Below, piece after piece: positions 44,395 through 48,242 of a DNA stretch of 64,000 nucleotides. Below the pieces are notes generated by a model, which was given only the letters and a program-made list of their open reading frames with translations, was not told where the DNA came from and did not search any database. Location of the stretch: assembly GCA_019746095.1 (NCBI GenBank), contig JAIESL010000007.1:1-64000 (forward strand), in the 5' to 3' direction. The position numbers and the translations under genes are program-made. The stretch comes from Caulobacteraceae bacterium (GTDB lineage: Bacteria > Pseudomonadota > Alphaproteobacteria > Caulobacterales > Caulobacteraceae). Each line of letters opens with the position of its first letter. Position 1 is the stretch's first letter.

Positions 44395-45408
44395 ATGCGT
44401 TACGATTTCGGGTCCGACAACACCGCCGGCATGGCCCCCGCCGCCCTTGCGGCCCTGACAGCCGCAAACGACGGCCATGCCCGGGCCTATGGTGCGGATG
44501 ACGTCACCGCGCGGACCGCAGACCTGATCCGTGCGCGCCTCGACGCCGATGCCGAGATCCGCTTCGTCTTTTCCGGCACCGCCGCCAATGCCATCGCCCT
44601 GTCGATGCTGGCCTGGCCACATGAGGCCGTGCTGGCCCATCACGCCGCCCATGTCTGCACCGACGAGACGGGTGCGCCCGGCTTCTTCGGCTCGGGCGTC
44701 GGCCTGCTGGGCCTGCCGGGCCTGTCCGGAAAGATCGAGCCTGCCGCGCTGCATGCCGTCCTCGCAGAGCCCGAGGTCGGCCACCGCCAGCCCCCGGCGG
44801 CCCTCAGCCTGACCCAGTCCACTGAATACGGCACCGTCTATACCGAGGAGGAGCTGCGCCACCTGATCGAGCCGGTGAAGCTGAGGGGCTTTGGTGTCCA
44901 TATGGACGGCGCGCGGCTGGCCAATGCGGCGGCGGCGGGCTTCGACCTGACGCAGATCGCCCGGCTGGGTGTTGATGTGCTGGTGTTCGGCGGAGCCAAG
45001 GCCGGGGCCAACTGTGCCGAAGCCATTGTGATGTTCGACAAGTCGCTGGCGCGCCGCATCGATAACCGGCTGAAGCAGGCCGGTCAGACCGCCTCCAAGA
45101 CCCGGTTTCTCTCTGCCCCCATCCTGGGCCTGCTGGAGAGCGGAGACTGGGAGGCGGGTGCCGCCCATGCCAACCTCATGGCGCAAAGGCTGGCTGCGGG
45201 CATCGCCACCCGCTCGCCCTTTGTCCTGGCCCATCCGGTCGAGGCCAATGCGGTGTTCGTCCGCATGCCGGCCGAGGCACACGAGCGGCTGAATGCCGCC
45301 GGCTGGGCCTGCTACCGGTTCGACGACGGCTCTGTCCGGTTCGTCTGCTCCTGGGCCACGACGGAAGCGGCCGTCGACGAAGTTTTGCAGGCCATCGCAA
45401 CGCTTTGA
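44395..45408 (+). CDS. threonine aldolase / beta-eliminating lyase family PLP enzyme
   Basis: FGSDNTAGMAP, FSGTAANAIAL, GFGVHMDGARLANAAAA, FGGAKAGA. Confidence 0.9.
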   Translation: MRYDFGSDNTAGMAPAALAALTAANDGHARAYGADDVTARTADLIRARLDADAEIRFVFSGTAANAIALSMLAWPHEAVLAHHAAHVCTDETGAPGFFGSGVGLLGLPGLSGKIEPAALHAVLAEPEVGHRQPPAALSLTQSTEYGTVYTEEELRHLIEPVKLRGFGVHMDGARLANAAAAGFDLTQIARLGVDVLVFGGAKAGANCAEAIVMFDKSLARRIDNRLKQAGQTASKTRFLSAPILGLLESGDWEAGAAHANLMAQRLAAGIATRSPFVLAHPVEANAVFVRMPAEAHERLNAAGWACYRFDDGSVRFVCSWATTEAAVDEVLQAIATL

Positions 45409-45504
45409 GCGTGTCGTTCATTGAACGGTCGCCACGCCCTGCCTAGATAGAACAAAGCGTGACCATTCTTGTCCGGCAGTGGGGCAGAGGTCGGAGGGAC
45501 TGAG

Positions 45505-47664
45505 ATGAACGCACCGTCGCGAATTGCCGATCGCGCGGCCGATGATCTGGTCGCCTATCGCACGGTCCGGGCGGCCATGCCTGGCCTCGCAGCAGGTCTG
45601 GGCCCCGAGGACCTGTCGGCCCAGTCGATGCCGGACTGCAGCCCCGGCAAATGGCATCTGGCGCACACCAGCTGGTTCTTCGAGGCGATGATCCTGGGCC
45701 AGGAGCCCGGTTATTGCCCGGTCGATCCGCGGTTCCAGTCCCTGTTCAACAGCTATTATGAAGCGCTCGGGCCGCGGGTTCAGCGTCCTCAAAGGGGCCT
45801 GATGACCCGGCCCTCCCTGGATGAGGTGCTGGCCTATCGCCGCGAAATCGACCGCCGGATGGTCGCATGGCTGGGCGAGGGGCAGGCCGATCCGCATGCG
45901 CGGTACCTGCTCGCCCTCGGCCTGAATCACGACCAGCAACATCAGGAACTGTTCCTGATGGACATCCTCAACCTGATGGCGTGCTCGCCGCTGGATCCGG
46001 CAGCCTACGGGGCCGAGCCGCGGTCCGGTCCCGTCCAGGCGAGACGCGGCGGGACGACCCGCTTCGATGGCGGCCTGGTCGGGATCGGCCACGGGGACTG
46101 GGGCTTTGCCTTCGACAATGAGGGGCCGGCGCATCGGGTCTGGCTCGAGCCCTATGCCCTGGGCAACGACCTCGTCTCCAACGGCGACTGGACCGCCTTC
46201 ATCGACGACGGCGGCTACAGCCGGCCCGAGCTGTGGCTGTCCGACGGCTGGGCGGCGGTGCAGGTCGAGGGCTGGGTCGCCCCCCTGTACTGGAGCCCCG
46301 AGGGTGACGCCTGGACGACCCTGGGCCTGACCGGCCGCCGGCCTGTCGATCCGGCCGCGCCGGTCCGCCATGTCAGCCTCTATGAGGCCGACGCCTATGC
46401 CCGTTGGGCGGGCAAGCGGCTGCCGACCGAGGCGGAGTGGGAGCACGCCGTGCGGTGCCGCCCGGAGGCCTTCTCCAATGCCTTCGGCGAAGTCTGGCAA
46501 TGGACCGCCAGCGCCTATTCCCCCTATCCGGGATTCCAGCCCACCGAGGGCACAGCCTCGGAATACAACGGGAAATTCATGGCCAACCAGATGGTCTTGC
46601 GAGGTTCCAGCTTCGCCACGCCCGAGGGGCATGCCCGGATCAGCTATCGCAATTTCTTCCATCCCCACCAGCGGTGGGCCTTTACCGGCCTGCGGCTGGC
46701 CGAGGATGCGCCGGTACGGCCGGCGCGGGCGACCGATGAAGGCGAGACCGCCCGGTTCCGCCGTGACCTGGTCGCTGGTCTTTCGCGTGCTCCCAAGGTC
46801 GCCTCACCGAAATGGTTCTACGACGCCGAGGGGTCGGACCTGTTCGAGGCCATTACCCGCCTCCCGGAATACTATCCGACTCGACAGGAGGCGGCCCTGC
46901 TGCGCCGCGTGGCCCCGGAATGGGCGGCGCGGTTCGGCCCGGGTGCGACCCTTGTCGAATTCGGATCCGGGGCCAGTGAAAAGACCCGGATCGTGCTCGA
47001 TGCCGCGCCGGCGATGGGGGCCTATGTTCCGATCGATATCAGTGCCGATGCCCTGGACGCCGCCGCCCGAAGGATCGCCGAGGCCTATCCGGCCCTGACC
47101 GTTGCGCCGCTGGTCGGCGACTTCCTGCATCTTGGGGCCCTTCCGCCGGGGGTCGGTCAGGGGCGGCGGGTCGGATTCTTTCCGGGCTCGACCATCGGCA
47201 ACCTCGAACGGGACGAGGCCGTCGCCTTCCTCACGGCGGCCCGCGGGATGCTCGGACCCGCCGCCCTGTTCATCCTGGGCGTCGATCTGGTGAAGGCTCC
47301 GGAGACACTGATCCTCGCCTATGACGACCCGGCCGGTGTCACCGCGGCCTTCAACCGCAACCTGCTGGTTCGCGCCAATCGTGAACTCGGGGCAGAGTTC
47401 GACGTCGACGGTTTCGCACACCGCGCGGTCTGGAACGCCACGGCCTCGCGTATGGAAATGCATCTTGAGGCCCGGCGCGACATGACCGTCCTGCTGGAAG
47501 GCCGCCGGGTGAGCTTTATGCGGGGCGAGACCATCCACACGGAGAGCTCACGGAAATACACCGAGGCCTCGGTGCGGGAACTGGCGGTGGCGGCCGGTTG
47601 GGCGGTCGTTGCCTTCGAGACTAGCCCGGACCCGGCGGTCGCCCTGGTCCTGCTTGAAGCCTGA
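45505..47664 (+). CDS. fused EgtB (sulfoxide synthase) - EgtD (L-histidine N-alpha-methyltransferase) ergothioneine biosynthesis protein
   Basis: N-half: PGKWHLAHTSWFFE, LNHDQQHQELFLMDILNLM, FGE-sulfatase ending WQWTASAYSPYPGFQ..EYNGKFMANQMVLRG. C-half: SPKWFYDAEGSDLFEAITRLPEYYPTRQE, LVEFGSGASEKTR, FFPGSTIGNL, ESSRKYT. One uninterrupted ORF, SD GGAGGG upstream of ATG 45505. Confidence 0.93.
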   Translation: MNAPSRIADRAADDLVAYRTVRAAMPGLAAGLGPEDLSAQSMPDCSPGKWHLAHTSWFFEAMILGQEPGYCPVDPRFQSLFNSYYEALGPRVQRPQRGLMTRPSLDEVLAYRREIDRRMVAWLGEGQADPHARYLLALGLNHDQQHQELFLMDILNLMACSPLDPAAYGAEPRSGPVQARRGGTTRFDGGLVGIGHGDWGFAFDNEGPAHRVWLEPYALGNDLVSNGDWTAFIDDGGYSRPELWLSDGWAAVQVEGWVAPLYWSPEGDAWTTLGLTGRRPVDPAAPVRHVSLYEADAYARWAGKRLPTEAEWEHAVRCRPEAFSNAFGEVWQWTASAYSPYPGFQPTEGTASEYNGKFMANQMVLRGSSFATPEGHARISYRNFFHPHQRWAFTGLRLAEDAPVRPARATDEGETARFRRDLVAGLSRAPKVASPKWFYDAEGSDLFEAITRLPEYYPTRQEAALLRRVAPEWAARFGPGATLVEFGSGASEKTRIVLDAAPAMGAYVPIDISADALDAAARRIAEAYPALTVAPLVGDFLHLGALPPGVGQGRRVGFFPGSTIGNLERDEAVAFLTAARGMLGPAALFILGVDLVKAPETLILAYDDPAGVTAAFNRNLLVRANRELGAEFDVDGFAHRAVWNATASRMEMHLEARRDMTVLLEGRRVSFMRGETIHTESSRKYTEASVRELAVAAGWAVVAFETSPDPAVALVLLEA

Positions 47665-47706
47665 AGGCGCGGAGGCGGAGACCAGAGCCGGTCCCCGCCC
47701 CGGGTG

Positions 47707-47952
47707 TCACTCCGGCCGGCCCGGCTTGACGGCAGGCGGCGAGGGCCTGTCGCGGCTGCGTGTGCCGTGAGAGGCCTCGCCGCCCTTGCGGCCGGCCTGC
47801 GCCGCCAGGCTGCGATCCTGCGAGAAGCTGCGCTTTTCGCCGGGAACGCTGGCACCGCCCTTGCGGGCGATCTCGCGCTGGCGTTCCGGATCCATGGAGG
47901 CAAAGCCCCGTTTGGAGACGCCGGAGGCCCGGTCGGGCTGTCCTTGAGCCAT
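47707..47952 (-). CDS. KGG-motif general stress protein
   Basis: KRGFASMDPERQREIARKGGASVPGEKRSFSQDRSLAAQAGRKGGEASHG. Confidence 0.9.
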   Translation of the reverse strand: MAQGQPDRASGVSKRGFASMDPERQREIARKGGASVPGEKRSFSQDRSLAAQAGRKGGEASHGTRSRDRPSPPAVKPGRPE

Positions 47953-48004
47953 GGGAGAATCCTTTCTTGGCGACGGTCCCGTCTGGTGGGCCGGTTCGGG
48001 AAAT

Positions 48005-48030
48005 GAACCCCCGGCCTTCGGTGCGGTTCC
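48005..48030 (-). promoter_or_regulatory. candidate EcfG (general stress) promoter for KGG gene
   Basis: Minus strand GGAAC-N16-GGTT. Confidence 0.5.
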
Positions 48031-48083
48031 GCTGTCGCCGTCACGCAATTGCGAGCGAATCGGAGGGTTTGGGCGTTTGGCGG

Positions 48084-48242
48084 TCACGGGCGGTCGTACG
48101 GCCGGTCGTCGCCTGGACCCCCTTCGTCGGGGGCCGGTTGCGGCATTTCGTCGGGCGCGCCGGAGGGATCAAGCTCCGGTCCCGGAGTTTCGGGCGGCAT
48201 CATTTCCGGACCATCGGGGCCGTCGGGTTCGATAGGGCTCAT
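48084..48242 (-). CDS. small proline/acid-rich ORF (52 aa), not in supplied ORF track
   Basis: Translation MSPIEPDGPDGPEMMPPETPGPELDPSGAPDEMPQPAPDEGGPGDDRPYDRP*; SD GAAGGAG 7 nt upstream of ATG. Confidence 0.65.
   Translation of the reverse strand: MSPIEPDGPDGPEMMPPETPGPELDPSGAPDEMPQPAPDEGGPGDDRPYDRP

Follow-up and report, generated by a model that had tools for sequence, protein, structure and literature searches.

Does the 2.16-kb open reading frame at positions 45505-47664 of the forward strand encode, as the earlier note proposed, two enzymes of ergothioneine synthesis in one polypeptide, with EgtB ahead of EgtD, and if so, how did this architecture arise and what does it serve? The window considered here is the whole 64,000-nt stretch of Caulobacteraceae DNA in which the frame lies. 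From the ATG at 45505, preceded at a distance of 7 nt by a Shine-Dalgarno-like GGAGG (45493-45497), to the stop ending at 47664, the frame is uninterrupted and codes for 719 residues. Along the product, here called EgtBD, the Pfam domains DinB_2 (residues 18-145), FGE-sulfatase and Methyltransf_33 follow one another, so the FGE-like domain does come after the N-terminal EgtB histidine motifs, as had been claimed. Residues 17-399 (45553-46701), with the DinB-like and FGE-like domains of a type II sulfoxide synthase, score 510 bits against egtB_TIGR03440 (NCBIfam cut-off 360). Residues 418-718 (46756-47658), predicted to be a SAM-dependent histidine N-alpha-trimethyltransferase, match Methyltransf_33 (PF10017; E = 3e-104; 349 bits, Pfam cut-off 23), and residues 418-715 score 358 bits against egtD_ergothio (TIGR03438; NCBIfam cut-off 291). 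Given these NCBIfam and Pfam matches, a chance open frame is excluded. No other gene of the genome matches either the EgtB or the EgtD family. We consider, with a probability of about 0.92, that it encodes a bifunctional ergothioneine enzyme which was fused by loss of a stop codon in a tandem egtB-egtD pair.

We aligned both halves to characterised enzymes. The EgtB half is 56% identical over 393 aligned positions to EgtB of Chloracidobacterium thermophilum, and places H54, the second histidine of KWHLAH (45664-45666), and H142 and H146 of HDQQH (45928-45942) opposite H62, H153 and H157, which we take to be the iron ligands of that enzyme. Among the candidate iron-binding histidines proposed earlier, these three are thus the ligands according to the alignment. 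Y84-Y85 (45754-45759) correspond to Tyr93-Tyr94, the acid-base pair of the type II EgtB of C. thermophilum (PMC10903977). The offset fixed independently by this tyrosine pair puts a histidine at all three ligand positions, and all five residues are invariant among 42 fused homologues. The EgtD half aligns Y456, N566, Y606, M652, E680 and S682 with Y56, N166, Y206, M252, E282 and S284 of Mycobacterium smegmatis EgtD, its histidine-binding residues; M252 and E282 also appear in the title of structure 4pip. The first five are invariant in the same 42 homologues and S682 nearly so. Catalytic residues are intact in both halves and, as far as the alignments tell, neither is decaying. The linker (residues about 402-417; 46708-46755), by contrast with these residues, varies in length and sequence among the 42 homologues.

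The remark that the FGE domain looks shortened holds only in part. At the place named, the region is ~14 residues shorter than in C. thermophilum EgtB, whose loop between the motifs EWE and EVWQWT is the longer one; the segment is, however, an ordinary variable loop, spanning 14 to 39 residues among homologues, fused or split alike, and given this spread we rejected the shortening as a functional adaptation.

An AlphaFold2 model computed from a 42-row alignment (mean pLDDT 83, pTM 0.67) predicts both folds well and the linker weakly. Confidence is low at residues 1-9, 40-45, 84-100 and 408-411 (pLDDT <50 for the last stretch); as 84-100 is among these, part of the EgtB active-site region is poorly modelled. 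By Foldseek, the modelled EgtB half resembles C. thermophilum EgtB (6qkj; TM of target 0.84), whose structures (6qki, 6qkj, 6o6l, 8qf6) are the best PDB relatives and share the iron ligands, the tyrosine pair and the fold, in a stand-alone protein. There are four chains in the crystals of this enzyme. The modelled EgtD half resembles M. smegmatis EgtD (4pip/4pio; TM 0.94), of the same family and fold; in the Foldseek alignment with this enzyme (4pim, 4pio, 4uy6) it is 44% identical at TM 0.9. M. smegmatis EgtD is again a stand-alone protein, unlike EgtBD.

Could one half be an inactive scaffold, or could the EgtB half make a compound of the selenoneine or ovothiol type? The SenA and OvoA (ovoA_Nterm) profiles do match EgtBD, but with 345 bits against a cut-off of 420 and 88 bits against 400, respectively, compared to 510 against 360 for EgtB, and they match at all because the families are related. 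OvoA takes histidine, not hercynine, as substrate, and its methyltransferase acts last and is of another family. It also carries the sulfoxide synthase first and the methyltransferase second in one chain, and its structure (8khq) is found by Foldseek as a full-length match to the EgtBD model; at an rmsd of ~15-16 Å over the full length, the domains are either arranged differently or cannot be compared, and a common order does not imply a common arrangement. With the catalytic residues of type II EgtB invariant, both an inactive half and another product are very improbable.

We then asked whether the fusion is peculiar to this genome, as the earlier framing as something unusual implied. The closest named relatives belong to Brevundimonas (up to 87% identity), where EgtD is present in 123 of 131 genomes and frames of fused length (at least 640 residues) hold 115 of the 127 EgtD matches. 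Across the Caulobacteraceae, 201 of 249 genomes have a match, mostly in fused-length frames. As frame length alone misleads, the junctions were read directly. Six long open frames in the phylum list (G803, G897, G856, G866, G893, G832), taken up as candidate additional fusions, each have a stop after EgtB and were discarded. Junctions from the genus and family surveys are fused in 55 of 60 loci; among GTDB loci for which both halves were located the figure is 78 of 79, a fraction biased upwards since the query that retrieved these loci was the fused protein. The fusion is, by these counts, the standard form in Caulobacteraceae and not an oddity of one genome. Two Brevundimonas (L160 in G083 and L161 in G046) carry, besides the fusion, a second, divergent stand-alone EgtD-like gene, ~42% identical and without an EgtB neighbour.

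The same readings bear on the suspicion that an artefact of assembly or sequencing merged two separate genes into one frame. With the genome being a draft of 138 contigs, there would be room for such an error. The junction sequence quoted in the earlier note (residues 394-422) is correct, and a stop or frameshift there is excluded by independent genomes: the junction is open in the 78 GTDB loci and in most genomes of the genus and the family, single-contig ones included. We regard the artefact as refuted.

Outside the family, the two genes are for the most part separate, as had been stated. In most other Proteobacteria of the surveyed set that carry the pair, egtB and egtD lie in tandem in the same order, and the survey of EgtB-EgtD order thus returned the arrangement of the fusion in unfused form. 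Such tandem pairs, e.g., in Methylobacterium (PMC4621440), encode the same two enzymes as separate polypeptides from adjacent genes, with a stop (often single and in frame) or a change of frame between them. In eleven tandem examples read directly (L188-L198), both genes are in one frame, with a stop right after EgtB, a gap of ~90-155 nt and one or no additional stop in between; other tandem pairs differ in frame. Were the EgtB stop lost, alone or along with a small indel, the fused architecture would result. We propose that this stop was lost early in Caulobacteraceae and that the single chain, inherited by most of the family, was acquired once by another class and reverted to two genes in some lineages.

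The phylogeny was computed from 92 rows using both halves; it comes from a quick search, is unrooted and carries SH-aLRT support only. In this tree the Caulobacteraceae fusions form the main clade and at least 5 state changes are required. Six split rows (L004, L011, L026, L158, L159, L162) are nested in the main fused clade, and a topology with no fission, i.e., with all split rows outside the fused clade, is rejected (p-AU 5e-50). The junctions of these six rows, where, for example, the EgtB stop is followed or overlapped by a new start in another frame, are typical of the re-splitting of an ancestral fusion; stop and start overlap or are close together. That the five split Brevundimonas rows go back to one fission is not rejected (p-AU 0.28); we therefore claim at least two fissions rather than three. 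Fusions outside Caulobacteraceae occur in G386 and in G592 and G590. The fusion of the latter two may be shared with that of Caulobacteraceae (support 69), hence two or three origins of the fusion. G843 belongs to another class; its fused gene (L181) branches inside a Caulobacteraceae genus with a support of 99 and is best read as a probable horizontal transfer. A divergent split pair in other Caulobacteraceae was probably also transferred.

The comparison with fungi follows from this origin. Fungal Egt1, or EgtA of Aspergillus fumigatus, unites both activities in one chain as EgtBD does; the methyltransferase stands at its N-terminus and the FGE-like domain at its C-terminus (PMC5066259). The Pfam and NCBIfam matches bear out the claim that the order in EgtBD is the opposite one. 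The order is inverse to the fungal one because the stop would have been lost in an egtB-egtD pair already so ordered, and the opposite order of the fungal protein implies a different fusion, not a rearrangement of the bacterial one. A possible gene fusion in bacteria is mentioned in a passage of PMC5066259 that cites Jones et al (2014). In the literature searched, a set to which Jones et al (2014) did not belong, we found no description of a characterised bacterial EgtB-EgtD fusion. The EgtB-EgtD architecture is common in public genomes and, going by the passage just named, a bacterial fusion has at least been hinted at in print.

What would the protein do? The EgtD half is expected to convert L-histidine and three SAM into hercynine, and the EgtB half, a type II non-haem iron oxygenase, would use O2 to join hercynine to a thiol, cysteine or gamma-glutamylcysteine, yielding the sulfoxide. 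The type II EgtB of C. thermophilum has both EgtB-type and Egt1-type activity (PMC9103826), and cysteine may therefore serve directly as the thiol. Ergothioneine would then be released by a separate PLP-dependent C-S lyase encoded elsewhere in the genome. Profile searches of the genome returned no EgtE and no EgtC above cut-off; L151 and L152, candidate PLP enzymes for the lyase step, match TIGR04343 weakly. Directly upstream of egtBD lies a threonine-aldolase-like PLP gene (PF01212; about 44395-45408), which we considered as the missing lyase and set aside, finding no ergothioneine-specific link. It occurs within ~2 kb upstream of egtBD in only 30 of 80 loci, and all 26 genomes tested have it, even the six among them that lack egtD. 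This makes it a threonine-aldolase-like core gene, universal in the genus, which adjoins egtBD in part of it.

The region upstream of the gene also raises the question of its control. The motif GGAAC-N15-18-CGTT is the EcfG promoter of the alphaproteobacterial general stress response, whose regulon in Sphingopyxis granuli includes egtB and egtD (PMC7083833). Of 80 loci, 28 carry this motif in the 150 bp upstream of egtBD, as opposed to 4 of 6422 background windows; many Brevundimonas carry a perfect copy there. In the window no strict EcfG promoter is present, and a scan for sigma-70-type promoters over 45380-48200 gave nothing above chance. Comparison with homologous upstream regions points to a degenerate homologue of the EcfG promoter on the forward strand at 45449-45473, of the form AGAAC-N15-... 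(AGAACAAAGCGTGACCATTCTTGTC at 45449). The clade of the window shows, over 45421-45473, a conserved degenerate EcfG site together with TTGAAC-N17-TAGATA. In that clade, regulation by stress may have disappeared or been replaced. On the other side of egtBD, a convergent gene for a KGG-repeat (con-10-like) stress protein (reverse strand, region 47707-48030, start 47952) is preceded by GGAAC-N16-GGTT at 48006-48030. Of 80 loci, 75 have this gene immediately downstream of egtBD, and 72 of these 75 show such a site. Note that, the loci being related, neither these counts nor those of the EcfG site are independent.

The simplest benefit of the fusion would be that two consecutive enzymes are made together and in equal amounts from a single message. 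The earlier note suggested that hercynine could be channelled between the two active sites, from EgtD to EgtB; in its strong form, this proposal makes channelling the purpose of the fusion and the joined protein kinetically superior to the separate enzymes. That consecutive steps sit in one chain, and that the fusion is kept family-wide and arose more than once, speak for this proposal; the linker, on the other hand, is short, hypervariable and weakly modelled, and relatives in the family that have lost the fusion keep both genes adjacent, with their frames overlapping or touching. As these relatives retain both genes, covalent joining is dispensable. Channelling as the purpose of the fusion is thus unsupported, and we think it unlikely. 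Equally doubtful is a related proposal in which fusion and fission act as a recurrent functional switch, the fused form passing hercynine within one particle and the re-split Brevundimonas having lost this transfer or having no need of it; if this were true, sister species would offer a natural experiment on substrate channelling.

Taken as an ergothioneine enzyme fused by stop loss, EgtBD would be a bacterial counterpart of Egt1 with the order reversed, and is most likely an ordinary enzyme pair in one chain. Having both activities in a single gene could aid production in laboratory hosts, and with closely related versions at hand, fused and re-split, one can test cleanly whether it pays to join consecutive enzymes. 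For the family, it means that two consecutive steps of ergothioneine synthesis would be carried out by one protein throughout a whole bacterial family, in an order opposite to that of fungi which would follow simply from the bacterial gene order.
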